From positions 1 through 21,357 of the IMG/VR virus record IMGVR_UViG_3300024999_000455: a stretch of 21,357 bases of DNA; one strand, 5' to 3'. Positions 1,663-14,317 of this stretch are shown here, piece by piece. The notes below the pieces were generated by a model. The model searched no databases. It was not told the DNA's origin and saw only the letters and a list, made by a program, of their open reading frames with translations. Position 1 is the stretch's first letter; every line of letters starts with the position of its first letter. The translations under genes were made by a program, and so were the position numbers. The stretch is from a virus.

Positions 1663-1707
1663 GGTAGTGTCTTACCACTAAAAATATTGGGTCATGTCCT
1701 ACCATGA
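1663..1707 (+). promoter_or_regulatory. Tandem small hairpins before the terminase-like gene
   Basis: Two units 27 bases apart each read GG, a 5-bp stem, and a six-base loop TCYTAC. Unit one is TAGTG/CACTA (1665-1680) with loop TCTTAC. Unit two is TCATG/CATGA (1692-1707) with loop TCCTAC. The stems differ in sequence yet both stay fully paired, while the loop is conserved. The second hairpin ends just before the Shine-Dalgarno AAGGAGA (1709-1715). This looks like a protein-binding RNA site or translational operator; the function is inferred. Confidence 0.45.
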
Positions 1708-1721
1708 GAAGGAGAGATATC

Positions 1722-2813
1722 ATGATAACAAAAGAAATTTTAAACAAAAACAGAGTATTAACTATGTCAAACAACCGTAAATGTGATTATTTAATTGTAG
1801 ATATAGGTAGTAATTCAGAAACAATAATGATGGGAATTAATATTCAAGGGAATAGAAAAGATATTATAGTAATAAAAAGATTAGTAAATAAATCATATGA
1901 AGACTTGGTAGATGAAGCAATCTGGTTATGTAATGAATTTTATATAAAAATTATTTTAGCAGATAAAAATGGTTATGGGTTAGGATTTATTGATATGTTT
2001 AAATTAAATATTAATCCTTTTAATATACAGATTAGAGAAATAGATGGTGTAAATGCTAAATATATTAATGATATATTAAATGATTTAAAATATGGTATGT
2101 TAAGATTTTTGCAAACTCCTGAATTAGCATTATCTTCATATATTAAACCATTTTTAGGATTATCTAATGTAATGGAATATCATAAAGAAACAGATAAATT
2201 AATTAATGAATTAAGCAATGTTGAATTTAAAATAGATAAAGGTAATATTAAGTTATCTTTAAAAGATGATAATATTGGTAAATTAAGAGTTAATTGTTTA
2301 TTAATGTTTTATTTTTATCCTGAAAATTTAATTAAATTTGATGAATTAATTAATGAATATAATAAAGATAACAATAAAGATAAATATGAAACTATAAAAC
2401 GTATTGCACAATATGAAGTGATTCATGGTATATTTTATAAATATTTATTCAAATGTATAGAAAATGATAAAATTAATGTAATATTTTATTATAGTAATAA
2501 AAATAAAATTGAACAATTTAAAAATATAGTCAAAGAAAATAATTTCGTTAATTTAAGTGAGAAATATATTGATAGAATTATTGTATCTAAGGATAGATTT
2601 GAAATTAGATTTAATAATGACAGTTTAATTAGTTTTATTTATGCTAATGATAATGCAAGAGGTTATAAATATCATTTTGCTGTAATTGATAGTGAAATTA
2701 ATAGAGATGTGTTTGATAATGTGATTGCTACTAATAGTATTTTATTTGATATGGCAAAAATAAATGGAAAGTTAGAGGAAGATAATTATTGTGTTGAGTT
2801 TGTTGAGATGTAG
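1722..2813 (+). CDS. Circularly permuted, degenerate large-terminase-like protein
   Basis: The ATG at 1722 is preferred over the ATG at 1704 because AAGGAGA lies seven bases before it; this gives 363 residues. Residues 22-200 resemble the RNase H-like nuclease of the TerL encoded at 5197: LIVDIGSN (Asp27) matches SMDVARS, ADKNGYGLGFID (Asp81) matches CDENGLGKGIID, and TDKLINELSNVEFK matches TDLFVEEVANLKIK. The third acidic site differs: IGKLR (185-189) stands where TerL has VDRDR. Residues 225-340 then resemble the later ATPase half: a strand INVIFYYSNK, FEIRFNNDSLI, ANDNARG and HFAVIDSE, like TerL EIKFVNNSRID, SSTSKGQ and HVIMIEES. No Walker A glycine-lysine-threonine is present. Domain order is thus nuclease then ATPase, the reverse of TerL. 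I expect no catalysis; a packaging regulator or structural partner is possible. The similarity is visible by eye only. Confidence 0.6.
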   Translation: MITKEILNKNRVLTMSNNRKCDYLIVDIGSNSETIMMGINIQGNRKDIIVIKRLVNKSYEDLVDEAIWLCNEFYIKIILADKNGYGLGFIDMFKLNINPFNIQIREIDGVNAKYINDILNDLKYGMLRFLQTPELALSSYIKPFLGLSNVMEYHKETDKLINELSNVEFKIDKGNIKLSLKDDNIGKLRVNCLLMFYFYPENLIKFDELINEYNKDNNKDKYETIKRIAQYEVIHGIFYKYLFKCIENDKINVIFYYSNKNKIEQFKNIVKENNFVNLSEKYIDRIIVSKDRFEIRFNNDSLISFIYANDNARGYKYHFAVIDSEINRDVFDNVIATNSILFDMAKINGKLEEDNYCVEFVEM

Positions 2814-2974: not shown

Positions 2975-4147
2975 ATGAATAAAAAATTAAGTGGTGTTTA
3001 TTGTATTAAAAATTTAAAAAATAATAAAATTTATATTGGTAGTAGCATTGATATTGTAGATAGATGGAGACAACATAAAAGAGAATTTAGAAAAAATATA
3101 CATAGTAATAAGTATTTACAATATTCTTGGAATAAACATGGCAATAGTAGTTTTGAATTTTCAATAATAGAAGAATGTAATGAAAATGAAACTTTAGAAA
3201 GAGAGCAATATTATTTAGATTTGTATGAATCCTATAATAGAAATAAAGGATATAATATTTCAAAAAGTTCATCTGCTCCAATGATGGGAAGAAAACATTC
3301 AAAAGAAACATTAATTAAATTAAGCGAAGGAGTTAGAAGTAGAGATTCTTCTGTTTGGGTAAGAGGAGAAGATAAATTTAATGCAAAATTTAAAGATAAA
3401 GACATTATTATAATAAAAAGAATGATATATGAAGGCAACAGAATTATAGATATAGCAAATTTATATAATGTAGAACCTAATACTATTACTCAAATAAAAA
3501 CAGGTGAAAGATGGTCACATATAAAAACTGAATATGATGACTTAATTATTCAAACACCGAGACAAAAATTAAATGAAGAAAATATAATTGAAATTAAAAA
3601 ATTATTAATTGAAGAAAAATTAAATATAAAAGAAATTGCAGACATTTTTGAAATTACATTTGGTCAAGTATCTTCAATTAAAAATTTAAATAGTTGGGAA
3701 AATATTGGTGAAGAATATAACGAACAACTAATAAATAGATTATCTGTTAATAAATTAGATAAAAATAAAGTTATGGAAATTAAATATTTGCTTTTAGAAG
3801 GGAAAAGTTGTTCTGAAATAAGTAAAATTTACGATGTTACTCCTTCGACAATATCTTATATAAATCAAAATAAAACTTGGAAAGATGTTTTAATTGATGA
3901 AAATAATGTTTCAAATAAGGTATATCTTGAAAAAGGAGCCAAACCTAGTTCAAGAATTCCTATAATCCAATTATCAATTGATGGTAATTTTATAAAAGAA
4001 TGGACATCAGCATCTGAAGTTTCTAAAGTTTTAAATATTGATGCTAGTGCAATAGCAAAATGTTGCAAAGGAAAACAATTAACTTATAAGGGTTATAAAT
4101 GGAAGTATAAAAATGAATATACAAATGATTTAAAAGTAGTTATTTAA
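2975..4147 (+). CDS. GIY-YIG homing endonuclease with three HTH-like repeats
   Basis: A free-standing homing endonuclease that would nick or cut phage DNA near its own insertion site. The N-terminal nuclease (1-100) has GVY (7-9), YIG (20-22), Arg30, the LEREQYY glutamate (75/77) and Asn94 in GYN, so all hallmark residues appear present. Residues 103-120 (MMGRKHSKETLIKLSEG) match the NUMOD3 DNA-binding motif. Three repeats follow at about 141-185, 199-245 and 262-305. Each has the pattern IKxLLxEGxxxxEIAxxYxVxxxxIxxIKxxxxW, like small helix-turn-helix units. Residues 328-378 form a NUMOD1-type module ending in YKGYKWKYK. The gene lies between the terminase-like gene and the small-terminase candidate, behind its own structured leader. 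GGAGG precedes the ATG by ten bases. Confidence 0.9.
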   Translation: MNKKLSGVYCIKNLKNNKIYIGSSIDIVDRWRQHKREFRKNIHSNKYLQYSWNKHGNSSFEFSIIEECNENETLEREQYYLDLYESYNRNKGYNISKSSSAPMMGRKHSKETLIKLSEGVRSRDSSVWVRGEDKFNAKFKDKDIIIIKRMIYEGNRIIDIANLYNVEPNTITQIKTGERWSHIKTEYDDLIIQTPRQKLNEENIIEIKKLLIEEKLNIKEIADIFEITFGQVSSIKNLNSWENIGEEYNEQLINRLSVNKLDKNKVMEIKYLLLEGKSCSEISKIYDVTPSTISYINQNKTWKDVLIDENNVSNKVYLEKGAKPSSRIPIIQLSIDGNFIKEWTSASEVSKVLNIDASAIAKCCKGKQLTYKGYKWKYKNEYTNDLKVVI

Positions 4148-4164: not shown

Positions 4165-5196
4165 ATGCCAAGACCAAAAAATACTAATAGTAATACATCT
4201 ATAAAGTCACAAAAAAAAGTTTCACAGATAACATGTGCAGCCTGTGGAGAACCTAAAAAACCAACAGAGTATTATGTTAGTTATAATCCAATTCATCAGA
4301 CTTCAAGAATACCATACTGTAAACCTTGTTTAAAAAAAATGATTGCAGATGATAAAGGGATTGTTATTTTAGATAAAGTTAAAGAAACATTACGATTGAT
4401 TGATCGTCCATTTTTATATAACATATGGAAATCTTCTTTGGAAGATAAAATGGATACATTTAGTACATATATAAAAAATTTACAACTTTCTCAATATCGT
4501 AAATTAGGATGGGAAGATTCTAAATTTTTACCAGAGATTGAAAACGAGTTAAATTATGATAACTTAAGTAGTGAAAATATATCTCAATCGGATTATAAAT
4601 CTAATTTTATAGTTACAAATGAAATAATAGAAAAATGGGGAAAAGGTTATAAACAAGAAGAATTTGAAGCGTTTGAAAGAAAGTATGTTTTATTAAAAAA
4701 TAATTATAAAGAAATAACTAATTTACATACTGAAGCATTATTGAATTATATTAGATACAGAGTTAAAGAGGAAATTGCAACAGCAAAAGGTGATGTAAAA
4801 GAAGCTAAAGAATGGGGAGAACTTGCAAATAAGGCTGCAACATCAGCAAAAATAAATCCTAGTCAATTAAGTAAAGCAGATTTATCAGATGGACTCTCTA
4901 CTTTTTCAGAATTGTCTCAGGCAGTTGAAAAAGAAGTTGATATTATACCTATCCTTCCAAGATTTAAGTATAGACCAAATGATGCTTTAGATTTTAATAT
5001 TTGGTGTTACGTAAATTATATTAGAGATTTAAGCGGTTTACCACCATGTAATTATGAAGATGTATATTCTTTTTATGATAGGAGAAAAGAAGATTATATT
5101 AAACAATATGGAGATCCTTATGGAATATTTACAGATGATACTACAGAAAAAAATAGAGATAAAATAAAAATCTTTATTAAAGAAGATGGTGATTAA
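4165..5196 (+). CDS. Zinc-finger protein, candidate terminase small subunit
   Basis: AAAGGAGG precedes the ATG. Residues 24-55 form a four-cysteine zinc module (Cys24-x2-Cys27, Cys52-x2-Cys55), preceded by a basic, serine/asparagine-rich tail. The remaining 280 residues look helical and charged; residues 150-215 are long amphipathic helices (KWGKGYKQEEFEAFERKY onward). The TAA stop abuts the ATG of the large terminase, implying translational coupling. Position and DNA-binding potential suggest the packaging-recognition (TerS-like) role, but it is far longer than a usual TerS and lacks an obvious N-terminal helix-turn-helix. A conserved phage protein of another function remains possible. Confidence 0.6.
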   Translation: MPRPKNTNSNTSIKSQKKVSQITCAACGEPKKPTEYYVSYNPIHQTSRIPYCKPCLKKMIADDKGIVILDKVKETLRLIDRPFLYNIWKSSLEDKMDTFSTYIKNLQLSQYRKLGWEDSKFLPEIENELNYDNLSSENISQSDYKSNFIVTNEIIEKWGKGYKQEEFEAFERKYVLLKNNYKEITNLHTEALLNYIRYRVKEEIATAKGDVKEAKEWGELANKAATSAKINPSQLSKADLSDGLSTFSELSQAVEKEVDIIPILPRFKYRPNDALDFNIWCYVNYIRDLSGLPPCNYEDVYSFYDRRKEDYIKQYGDPYGIFTDDTTEKNRDKIKIFIKEDGD

Positions 5197-6957
5197 ATGT
5201 CATCATATGGGAATTTTCAAAGTGATAATGCAAAACATACAACAAAAGAAAGTAGAAATAATTATAATCCTGATTTTAATAGTACAGTAAATCCAAAAGG
5301 AGAAGAAGAAAATAATCAATTTAGAAGTAATTTAGATAAATATGTAGATTTTATTTCATGGGCAAGATTTTACCCTGATTTATGGTTAGATTTAATTAAA
5401 CCCAAAAAAGGTGGTATTAAATTACATTCTGATCAACGTACTTTTATGAGGATAGCAATGCGATTTTTAAGTATGTATGGCGTATATCCTAGAGGTTGGG
5501 GTAAAACATTTAATGAAGAAATTATAATGTTTATAGCATGTGTATTTTTTCCAGGTATAGAATTTGCACTAACGGCTCAAACAAAAGAAAATGCAGCAGA
5601 ATTATTAAAAGATAAATATAATGATATATTAAAAAAATATCCTTGGTTTAAAAATGAGATTTATGATGCTAAATTTTCTAAAAGTGACGCAGAAATTAAG
5701 TTCGTAAACAATTCTCGGATAGATGTATTGGCAAATTCTTCAACTTCAAAAGGTCAAAGACGGCACGTAATTATGATTGAAGAATCTGCTTTAATTGATG
5801 ATTTTACATTTCAAGATTCATTATTTCCAATTGTTGAACATGGTAGATTAACTGTTGGTGATTTAGGAATATTAAATCCTGAAGAATTAAGTCAAAAAGT
5901 AAATTTTTATACAACTGCTGGATTTAGAGGTAGTGATGAATTTACTAGAAGTATCCGTATGAAAGAAGACATGATAAAATTAGAAGGTAAAATAGTTATA
6001 GGTTCGGATTGGCATTTAGGATGTTGGTATGGTAGAGGATCAACTAAACAGCAGATTTTAGATAAAAAGAAAAATATGTCTCCTATTGCATTTGCACAGA
6101 ATTATGAATCGAAATGGTGTGGGAGTTCAGATGGCGCATTAGTTGATATTACTAAACTTTTAAAATTAAGAACATTGACATCACCAGAATTAATATATGA
6201 TGGTAAATCAGATTATTATGTTAGTATGGATGTTGCACGTTCTCAAAAATCTAGCAACAATCAATCTTCTATTGCTGTAATTAAAGTTAAAAGGAATAAA
6301 GAAGATAGAATTATAAATATGCAATTAGTAAATTTAATAAATTTAAAACAAGGATTAAATTTCACAGCACAAGCAATTGAATTTAAGAGGATAAGAAATT
6401 TATATAATGCAAAAAAGGCAATTTGCGACGAAAATGGTCTAGGAAAAGGAATTATTGATGAATTATTAAAAGAACAAGTTGATCCAATTACTAAAGAAAT
6501 ATTAAAATGTTGGGATACTATTAATACTGATAATGAACCAGATGTTCAAGGTTCAGAAAAATGTTTATATGCACTCCATTCACAGGGTATTAACTCTGAT
6601 ATAATTGTAAATTTTATTGATGTTGTTGAAGGTAAAAAACTTCAAATATTAGATAAACATCAAAATAATAATTATTCATTAAGCAATGAAGATTATATAA
6701 ATAATGTAGTTTTACCAAAAGTTCAAACAGATTTATTTGTAGAAGAAGTTGCAAATTTAAAAATTAAACATTTACAAGGTGGTAAATTATCTGTTGAACA
6801 AGTTACTAGATCGGTCGATAGAGATAGATTTTTCGCCGTTGCTTATGGTTTATGGTATATTAAAAATTTTGAAGATAAAGCTAAAAAGGCAATAATTAAC
6901 ATCTCCCCTTCATCATATTTTGCTATAGCAAATAAATCATCTCGTGCAAGACGATAA
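5197..6957 (+). CDS. terL: Terminase large subunit (packaging ATPase-nuclease)
   Basis: The packaging motor docks on the portal, hydrolyses ATP to pump DNA into the prohead, and cuts the concatemer. The ATPase domain has an atypical Walker A, PRGWGKT (98-104), an adenine-side LHSDQR stretch (76-81), Walker B VIMIEE (191-196) and the coupling motif YTTAG (238-242). The C-terminal RNase H-like nuclease shows SMDVARS (Asp345), ICDENGLGKGIIDEL (Asp411) and SVDRDRFFAVAYG (Asp541/Asp543), so all three acidic sites are kept. Length 586 aa is normal. The first 50 residues are polar and probably disordered. The start directly follows the upstream stop codon, with only a weak GATGGTGAT as ribosome site, consistent with coupled translation. 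Confidence 0.95.
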   Translation: MSSYGNFQSDNAKHTTKESRNNYNPDFNSTVNPKGEEENNQFRSNLDKYVDFISWARFYPDLWLDLIKPKKGGIKLHSDQRTFMRIAMRFLSMYGVYPRGWGKTFNEEIIMFIACVFFPGIEFALTAQTKENAAELLKDKYNDILKKYPWFKNEIYDAKFSKSDAEIKFVNNSRIDVLANSSTSKGQRRHVIMIEESALIDDFTFQDSLFPIVEHGRLTVGDLGILNPEELSQKVNFYTTAGFRGSDEFTRSIRMKEDMIKLEGKIVIGSDWHLGCWYGRGSTKQQILDKKKNMSPIAFAQNYESKWCGSSDGALVDITKLLKLRTLTSPELIYDGKSDYYVSMDVARSQKSSNNQSSIAVIKVKRNKEDRIINMQLVNLINLKQGLNFTAQAIEFKRIRNLYNAKKAICDENGLGKGIIDELLKEQVDPITKEILKCWDTINTDNEPDVQGSEKCLYALHSQGINSDIIVNFIDVVEGKKLQILDKHQNNNYSLSNEDYINNVVLPKVQTDLFVEEVANLKIKHLQGGKLSVEQVTRSVDRDRFFAVAYGLWYIKNFEDKAKKAIINISPSSYFAIANKSSRARR

Positions 6958-8826: not shown

Positions 8827-8859
8827 ATTTAAAATAAATTTATTTGGAGGATGATGATA

Positions 8860-9855
8860 TTGAGAAAATTATTATACACTGATATTAAAAATTTTGTAGA
8901 AAGTTTAAGTTATAAATTAATAGATAAAAATTATATAAATGCAAGAAGTAAATTAATCTTAAAAGACAATGAAGGATATTTTTTAAATTCTAGTTTAGAT
9001 AATTTAAAACATGGTTATATACCAATGAGGTTTCATAAGAATAATCCATATACAATAAAAAACATAAAACATTGGTTAAAATTAAATAATAAATTATTTG
9101 AATTAGTTAGCAATGAATACATTAATAGTAGTAAATTATTAAAATGGAAATGCTTAAAAGAAGATTGCAATGATTATTTTTATTTAAGTTGGGATTGTGT
9201 TCTTGCAGATATTGGTTGTGGAGTTTGTGCCGGAAGGCAAGTAGGATTATCAAATTGTTTAGCGACAAAGAATCCTAAACTTGCATCTGAATGGCATTCT
9301 ACTTTAAATGGAGAATTGACACCTTATGATGTTACTTATGGTTCTGGTATAGAAGTGTGGTGGAAATGTAAAGATTGTGGACATGAATGGCATAATTCTG
9401 TAAATAATAGAAATTGTAATAATACTGGCTGTCCAGAATGTAATAAATCAAAAGGAGAAAAAGAATGTAGTGTAGTTTTAATATCTAAAGGTTTTATAGA
9501 AATAAATAATAAAAAATTATCCAATGTAGATAACGCAATATGTTTTATTACACAAAAAGAATTTAAAGGTCTTATAGGTGTTGGAGGAGGTTTACTATCA
9601 TATGATTTCTACATACCTGATTTAAATTTATTAATTGAATATCAAGGAATTCAACACGAAAAATACATACCTGGTTTCCATAAATCATATGATGCTTTTG
9701 AAACGCAAATTGAACATGATAAAAGAAAACGAAAATACGCACAAATTAATAATATAAACTTATTAGAAATTTGGTATTATGATTTTGATAATATAGAAAA
9801 TATTCTTACTAAAGAATTAAATATTATATCATATAAATTACAAAATGCATCATAA
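8860..9855 (+). CDS. Zinc-ribbon / Vsr-like homing endonuclease
   Basis: The start is taken as TTG at 8860, nine bases after GGAGG; the ATGs at 8851 and 8854 are too close to that site. Of 331 residues, the N-terminal 80 resemble a DNA-binding repeat seen in phage endonucleases. A first zinc site is Cys98, 103, 120 and 123. Residues 133-194 form a DUF4379-type zinc ribbon (TKNPKLASEWH, GELTPYDVT, VWWKC, GHEW, CPEC; Cys170, 173, 191, 194). The C-terminus is Vsr/EDxHD-like: a glutamate near 200-202, YDFYIP (Asp249), IEYQGIQH (Glu260, His266) and EHDKRKRKYA (His286, Asp287). These are the features of the I-Bth0305I-type homing endonucleases. It sits behind a terminator between two paralogous small genes, next to the portal. 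Confidence 0.85.
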   Translation: MRKLLYTDIKNFVESLSYKLIDKNYINARSKLILKDNEGYFLNSSLDNLKHGYIPMRFHKNNPYTIKNIKHWLKLNNKLFELVSNEYINSSKLLKWKCLKEDCNDYFYLSWDCVLADIGCGVCAGRQVGLSNCLATKNPKLASEWHSTLNGELTPYDVTYGSGIEVWWKCKDCGHEWHNSVNNRNCNNTGCPECNKSKGEKECSVVLISKGFIEINNKKLSNVDNAICFITQKEFKGLIGVGGGLLSYDFYIPDLNLLIEYQGIQHEKYIPGFHKSYDAFETQIEHDKRKRKYAQINNINLLEIWYYDFDNIENILTKELNIISYKLQNAS

Positions 9856-13492: not shown

Positions 13493-14317
13493 ATGATTAT
13501 ATTAGAAACAATTAATTCACAAATTATCACAAATAATATGAAATATCCAGGTATCTATTTAATTATTAATCTAGTAAATAATAAATTTTATGTTGGTAGT
13601 GCTAAAAATATATGGTCGCGTAAATTAGGGCATCTTAGAGACTTAAGAAATAATAAGCATAAAAATATTTATTTGCAAAATTCTTATAATAAATATGGTT
13701 CACAATACTTCATAATTGTTTTATTAGAGAAAGTAGAATCTGAAAACAACCTAACTGAACGTGAACAATATTGGATAGACACATTAGATGCTACTAATAA
13801 AGAAATTGCTTATAATATATGCCCTAATGCCGAAAGTAAATTAGGTATCAAACATTCAGAAAAGACTAAAATAAAAATGAGCAATTCAATGAAGGGTATT
13901 AAACGTACTGATGAAGGTAGAAAAAATATGAGTATATCTAAAAGTAAACCTATTATTCAATGTACAATTGATGGTAAGTATATTCAAGAATGGGAAAGTG
14001 CTAATTATGCTTCTGAAAAATTAAATTTATCTCAAACTAATATTTCTAGAGCATGTCTTCATAATAATAATTATGCACATAATTATTTATGGTTTTTTAA
14101 ATCAGAATATGAAGATAATAATTTCAATATAAACAATTTCATACCTAGAATTGGTAAGAAAATTAATCAATATACCTTAGATGGTCAGTTAATAAAAACA
14201 TGGGATACATACAAAGATATAAAAATAGATTCTGAAATTAGAACAACTTATCTTCTTGGATGTTGTGAAGGAACATATAAATCCCATAAAGGTTTTATTT
14301 GGAAATATGTATCATAA
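13493..14317 (+). CDS. GIY-YIG homing endonuclease with NUMOD motifs
   Basis: The nuclease domain (16-112) has GIY (20-22), YVG (33-35), Arg43, the TEREQYW glutamate (89/91) and Asn108 in AYN, so it looks intact. Residues 117-150 match NUMOD3 (GIKHSEKTKIKMS; GIKRTDEGRKNMS). Two NUMOD1-type modules follow: PIIQCTIDGKYIQEWESANYA (153-173 onward) and KINQYTLDGQLIKTWDTYKDI (223-243 onward), each ending in a W-x-F/Y motif. It lies just downstream of the capsid terminator and before the next virion gene, the usual place for a free-standing mobile endonuclease. The ribosome site AAAAGAGATGAT overlaps the ATG at 13493 and is weak; ATG 13538 (KYPGIYLI) is an alternative start. Confidence 0.9.
   Translation: MIILETINSQIITNNMKYPGIYLIINLVNNKFYVGSAKNIWSRKLGHLRDLRNNKHKNIYLQNSYNKYGSQYFIIVLLEKVESENNLTEREQYWIDTLDATNKEIAYNICPNAESKLGIKHSEKTKIKMSNSMKGIKRTDEGRKNMSISKSKPIIQCTIDGKYIQEWESANYASEKLNLSQTNISRACLHNNNYAHNYLWFFKSEYEDNNFNINNFIPRIGKKINQYTLDGQLIKTWDTYKDIKIDSEIRTTYLLGCCEGTYKSHKGFIWKYVS

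Follow-up and report, generated by a model that had tools for sequence, protein, structure and literature searches.

A terminase-derived, probable pseudo-enzyme with rearranged domains and a two-palindrome leader in a group of SPbeta-like phages

In this study, we analysed a gene in a 21,357-nt stretch of viral DNA (IMG/VR record IMGVR_UViG_3300024999_000455, positions 1 to 21,357; hereafter the window) and found that it encodes a terminase-derived, probable pseudo-enzyme, made up of a terminase-type nuclease domain with the middle part of a terminase ATPase domain behind it (Table 1). The gene, which we call the permuted gene, is carried by a group of SPbeta-like phages. Its descent from a terminase and the swapped order of its halves are almost certain, and the residues lost from both halves make it very likely that the product is catalytically dead. 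Our overall reading, to which we assign a probability of about 0.5, is that this dead terminase derivative regulates itself and acts as an accessory at packaging or DNA ends irrespective of the type of large terminase (TerL) that accompanies it.

Table 1. Coordinates of the permuted gene, its leader and the packaging genes downstream (positions in the window)
Feature	Position	Strand	Basis or remark
Leader repeat 1, GGTAGTGTCTTACCACTA	1663..1680	+	Palindrome TAGTG-TCTTAC-CACTA at 1665-1680; conserved in relatives
Leader repeat 2, GGTCATGTCCTACCATGA	1690..1707	+	Palindrome TCATG-TCCTAC-CATGA at 1692-1707
Shine-Dalgarno, AAGGAG	1709..1714	+	Sequence; kept in leader alignment; 7 nt 5' of ATG 1722
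Permuted terminase-like ORF, 363 aa	1722..2813	+	Omega 0.11-0.20
Terminase-type nuclease half, residues 1-200	1722..2321	+	Profile comparisons, alignment, modelled fold
Nuclease acid Asp27	1800-1802		Kept
Nuclease acid Asp81	1962-1964		Kept
Site of third nuclease acid, Leu188	2283-2285		
Truncated ATPase half	2379..2810	+	Spans the helix that follows Walker A up to the strand preceding motif III
Walker B Asp323 of ATPase half	2688-2690	+	Catalytic Glu missing
YonG-like protein (phrog_3314)	4165..5196	+	Possibly small terminase subunit, from its position
Resident full-length TerL, YonF type	5197..6957	+	Comparison protein

Homology to TerL and loss of catalytic residues

The reading frame of the permuted gene is already open from an ATG at 1704. 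On sequence grounds, the ATG at 1722, where the initial annotation had begun the gene, is the likelier start, since AAGGAG lies 7 nt upstream of it, several relatives start with MITKELLNK in the corresponding place, and ATG 1704 falls within an arm of a conserved palindrome. Residues are numbered here from 1722; numbering from 1704 would run 6 larger.

Single-sequence Pfam and BLASTP searches with the protein were too weak to decide its origin, and BLASTP against the resident TerL returned two separate pieces in swapped order with weak E values of 0.007 and 0.017. Profiles gave a firmer answer. When a first, small alignment of the family was compared with eight TerLs, profile against profile, residues 1-199 matched TerL 307-555 (E 6.4e-9, 204 columns), bearing out the nuclease-block match that had been claimed for residues 22-200, and this match begins at the linker between the ATPase and nuclease domains of TerL. 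The back half had been assigned to the TerL ATPase, and in agreement with this residues about 244-338 match phrog_15503 in a PHROG scan (E 8e-5), a profile whose match to the resident TerL spans its N-terminal ATPase half (E 1.7e-62) and that was hit by all 14 of the family members scanned. The segments FNNDS, NARG and VIDSE of the permuted protein align here with FVNNS, TSKG and MIEES of TerL. A TerL profile made from the sequences of five named phages, to the exclusion of all sequences from these metagenomes, matched family members through its segments 302-429, 466-576 and 105-202, in that order, at up to 45.9 bits (E 1.3e-10 for a search space of one million sequences), against a best score of 8.9 bits among about 5000 shuffled or reversed versions. 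The profile comparisons, a kind of check that the initial annotation had proposed, found terminase matches for each half. Of all members, the window copy diverges most and scores lowest, with 4.7 bits against the named-phage profile and 26.1 bits against a 14-sequence profile; it is counted in the family, which has about 14 distinct IMG/VR members, because these are 47-72% identical to it over aligned regions.

The protein is therefore homologous to both the ATPase and the nuclease domain of YonF-type TerLs, but its segments are rotated relative to theirs and the order of ATPase first and nuclease second is absent. The description "circularly permuted" holds in that the order is reversed, with TerL 302-576 preceding 105-202. 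It does not hold as a clean permutation: TerL residues about 1-104, which include Walker A, and about 235-305, from motif III to the lid, have no counterpart, and the permuted protein stops where TerL motif III begins. Because these two regions are absent, we describe the arrangement as permuted and truncated, not as a strict circular permutation.

Structure prediction suggests the same origin for the nuclease half. The full-length AlphaFold2 model, built with 11 homologues, has a predicted secondary structure that fits, and was left out of the fold search because its pLDDT was 44.9. The nuclease half of a relative, L014 (L numbers denote the IMG/VR stretches compared), was modelled at a pLDDT of 85.7 and a pTM of 0.85 from an input alignment that contained TerL rows, favouring a terminase fold. 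Its best Foldseek matches in the PDB are the terminase nucleases of Sf6, G20c, HCMV, D6E, HK97 and T4, and among predicted viral structures most of its named top matches are terminases. Since TerL rows had been supplied, this model backs the sequence result and is not independent evidence; with that qualification, the nuclease half is predicted to have a terminase-type RNase H nuclease fold. Sequence matches of the family profile in the PDB were mainly to de novo helical proteins (best E 0.0018) and were taken as chance.

The alignments also bear on activity. Asp27 and Asp81 correspond to the first two TerL nuclease acids, and in an LIxExxN segment the Glu and Asn are invariant across the family and the TerLs. 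The third acid, the Asp of a K/R-D pair in every TerL row, is Leu188 in the window copy; the change from VDRDR to IGKLR had been pointed out before, and we find L, T, S or G at this position in every family member, never Asp. In phage G20c, the RuvC-like terminase nuclease adopts an RNase H fold and has three catalytic Asp; D294N, D347N and D429N, among them the change of the equivalent third Asp, gave the lowest activity (PMC5389553). The counterpart of this third Asp is absent in the permuted protein. In the other half, similarity to TerL starts just past Walker A, and no Walker A is recognisable in the family, as had been noted for the window copy: members read IHG[TI]FYKYLF where TerLs have RGxxK[TS]. 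The Walker B Asp is present in all members and is followed by S, T, R, N or K, never by the catalytic Glu. The term "catalytically decayed" in the initial annotation thus fits both halves, as judged from the alignments. As for an intein scar at the HGT motif, only its position speaks for it, in that sister TerLs carry inteins at GK/T.

The family, its leader and the neighbouring genes

The carriers have neighbouring IMG/VR sample numbers (3300024999-3300025012), except L035 (3300001242), whose contig begins inside the ATPase half. No relatives of the permuted protein were found in a genome_contigs protein scan, and tblastn gave only TerLs in phage records and no matches in plasmid records. Reading frames are intact in all complete family members. 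A codon model over eight members gave omega values of 0.11 for the nuclease half and 0.20 for the ATPase half, indicating purifying selection and hence maintenance of both halves (codon runs with three taxa on this second half did not move from their starting values and were disregarded). We have little doubt that the protein has a selected function.

A long branch of 1.5-2.2 substitutions per site separates the TerLs from the family in the tree of either half. Since both halves form a deep branch outside all TerL types found, the permuted gene did not arise from the resident TerL, and its earlier description as a copy of the large terminase is unsupported. In L018 (5176-5625) and L022, the ATPase half stands by itself as a free ORF preceded by its own Shine-Dalgarno sequence, the leader repeats and the nuclease half being missing, and its ATG aligns with a Met at the junction of the halves in most fusion members. 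This free half raised the idea of a fusion of two older genes; a deletion in these phages was judged simpler because the copy is similar to those of the L013/L017 subgroup and some of the 5' flank is shared.

The gene is preceded by a 52-nt leader (1663-1714) in which GGTAGTGTCTTACCACTA, a spacer of 7-9 nt and GGTCATGTCCTACCATGA are followed by the ribosome-binding site. Relatives are 87-100% identical to the window in this leader and only 49-67% identical in the preceding 52 nt, a sharp boundary, although repeat 1 is altered in L013 and lost in L014. An exact scan of IMG/VR for repeat 2 returned 14 stretches, in each of which it lies directly before a member of the permuted family; the joined two-repeat element was not found in genome_contigs, and the window has no further copy of the pattern. 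The two-palindrome leader is thus known solely before the permuted gene in the collections scanned. In each repeat, a 5-bp palindrome surrounds TC[T/C]TAC. Between the two repeats, 5 of the 6 loop positions are the same and two stem pairs differ with compensation, and this retention of loops alongside compensatory change in stems points to RNA hairpins. Their folding energy is no better than that of shuffled sequence, and so the repeats may instead work at the DNA level or as RNA without structure. The leader therefore resembles an RNA operator or riboregulator in being a conserved element tied to one gene, but not in predicted structure or in Rfam membership, as no family reaches its gathering score. 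It is probably a control element of the permuted gene. Given that it is tied to this one gene, we infer that it is most simply an operator for the gene's own product, and we regard it as a putative translational operator.

Several further features of these genomes were recorded. Between the permuted gene and the next ORF, at about 2850-2910, lies a long inverted repeat, AAGAAGTTAGGT...ACCTAACTTCTT, followed by a T-rich run; it is terminator- or attenuator-like and has relatives in L019 and L021, both without the permuted gene. Which endonuclease-like ORF occupies the slot between the permuted gene and yonG varies from phage to phage. In the window, ORFs that lie between the packaging and head genes, at 2975-4147 (by Pfam) and 13493-14317 (by motif only), are read as GIY-YIG homing endonucleases, and an ORF at 8851-9855, just after the portal gene, has a DUF4379 treble-clef zinc finger (E 7.9e-21) and is possibly an endonuclease. 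A gene upstream of the permuted gene (L014:108-776), missing in the window, has counterparts in L003, L011, L013, L018, L019 and L023; its N-terminus is YonG-like in L014 and L023 (phrog_3314, E 1e-15 in L014) and is joined there to a constant LRETLDLIKKYDWxLMYSEY segment.

The TerLs themselves also vary. PHROG 15503, 24618 and 26582, listed as of unknown function, match the ATPase and nuclease regions of YonF-type TerL. In L020, L023, L039, L057, L058, L066, L068 and L005, among which are close sisters of the window phage, TerL carries a LAGLIDADG intein of about 440 aa exactly at Walker A (GK/...HN/T). The C-terminal tail of the resident TerL, NISPSSYFAIANKSSRARR (6898-6957), is common to the L011 TerL despite bodies that are about 30% identical, and other TerL types end in DSDYDFVFSFS; the tail may be swapped independently, perhaps to suit the portal.

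Proposed role and alternatives

We propose that the permuted protein would have lost cutting and pumping and, by analogy with the vestigial nuclease of phi29 gp16, would have retained nucleic-acid binding. It would bind the two palindromic repeats before its ribosome-binding site and so limit its own synthesis, and it would serve as an accessory factor at a DNA-packaging or DNA-end step, whichever TerL the phage carries. These parts differ in strength: autoregulation by the product is a tentative proposal, somewhat short of even odds, and action on packaging or DNA ends is possible but rather doubtful. A more specific version, in which the dead, domain-swapped terminase binds hairpins in its own leader RNA and acts across unrelated terminase types, is improbable; it might then serve, for example, as a decoy for terminase-sensing immunity or as an RNA-dependent packaging modulator, comparable to the vestigial nuclease of phi29 with its pRNA.

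The protein could instead be a dedicated partner of the resident motor that joins or caps the TerL, YonG or portal of its phage and modulates packaging. Its homology to TerL would suit such a partner, as would its position directly upstream of yonG-terL, which comparison of carriers in IMG/VR extended to related phages as the initial annotation had anticipated, and the N-terminal MxSYxNFNS of some members, which is like the TerL leader MASYKNFTS. The window copy, however, lacks this leader peptide, and the one family precedes six TerL types with 20-38% mutual identity (that of the window; L003/L014; L011; L012/L013/L015/L078; L016; and L086). L013 and L014 carry near-identical permuted genes, yet their TerLs are 23% identical. 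Terminase modules therefore swap beside the permuted gene while the gene stays, and YonG types change together with TerL types. Moreover, sister phages L019, L021 and L023, with YonG proteins 86% identical to that of the window, are without the permuted gene in the stretches examined, and so the gene is dispensable, an accessory. Because the family is decoupled from TerL type, we consider a dedicated partner unlikely.

This independence of TerL type, together with the patchy distribution, would also suit an accessory gene whose product displays terminase surfaces, with no activity of its own, to bacterial TerL sensors (Avs/AVAST) or to the motors of other phages infecting the same cell. Avs1-Avs4 respond to terminase or portal proteins (PMC12931631), and an Avs3-bound terminase (8dgc) is among the solved structures nearest to the L014 nuclease model. 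On the other hand, the ATPase half is incomplete, a decoy might instead activate the sensor, and no member gave a convincing match to a PADLOC model, in a library of host defence systems. Decoy or interference is, in our judgement, an improbable role.

It is very unlikely that the gene is a translated yet functionless relic of terminase-module exchange at a homing-endonuclease hot spot. Such an origin would agree with the varied endonuclease-like ORFs that adjoin the gene, with the swapping of modules beside it, and with its loss or shortening in several phages, but not with the low omega over eight members, the frames intact in every complete member, or a leader better conserved than its surroundings. 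Lastly, an unrelated fold that resembles TerL by chance, for which the weak single-sequence scores and the poor full-length model might speak, is contradicted by the profile-profile and named-phage profile matches with their shuffled controls, the nuclease model and the phrog_15503 matches throughout the family, and can practically be dismissed; neither of the outcomes that the initial annotation had named as fatal to its view, an unrelated fold or the want of a terminase match in either half, occurred when we looked for them.

Relation to known terminases and implications

The closest known proteins are the YonF-type TerLs of SPbeta-like phages (phrog_15503, phrog_2, phrog_24618), with which the permuted protein has in common the homology of both halves, the terminase nuclease fold, the first two nuclease acids, the Walker B acid and an R/K-G-x-R/K motif before Walker B. 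It differs from them in its reversed order, in lacking Walker A, the catalytic Glu, the third nuclease acid and the counterparts of the two TerL regions described above, and in being encoded by an extra gene upstream of yonG-terL. Partial forms of a terminase are made beside the full protein in phage T4, as short products of gene 17. Those products come from terL itself and keep its order, whereas the permuted gene is separate and diverged.

The C-terminal domain of phi29 gp16 is a vestigial terminase nuclease that retains DNA and RNA binding (PMC7672431). Like gp16, the permuted protein has kept a terminase-type nuclease domain whose catalytic residues are lost, and it shows the fold without the full catalytic set that marks a vestigial nuclease of the phi29 type, although, unlike in gp16, two of the three acids remain. 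In contrast, gp16 is a working packaging ATPase with the normal domain order, while the ATPase half of the permuted protein is truncated and a complete TerL is encoded nearby. No dead or permuted terminase paralogue with reversed domains is described in the literature searched, which left most subscription journals outside. What is new is the domain arrangement of this terminase-derived protein and its 52-nt two-palindrome leader.

Altogether, terminases have a central part in phage assembly; bacterial immune sensors target them, and a herpesvirus drug target is among their relatives. Given the selection on the permuted gene, its private leader and its independence of TerL type, our data indicate that these phages keep a dead terminase for something besides pumping DNA, and the permuted protein offers a compact test case for the reuse of terminase parts.
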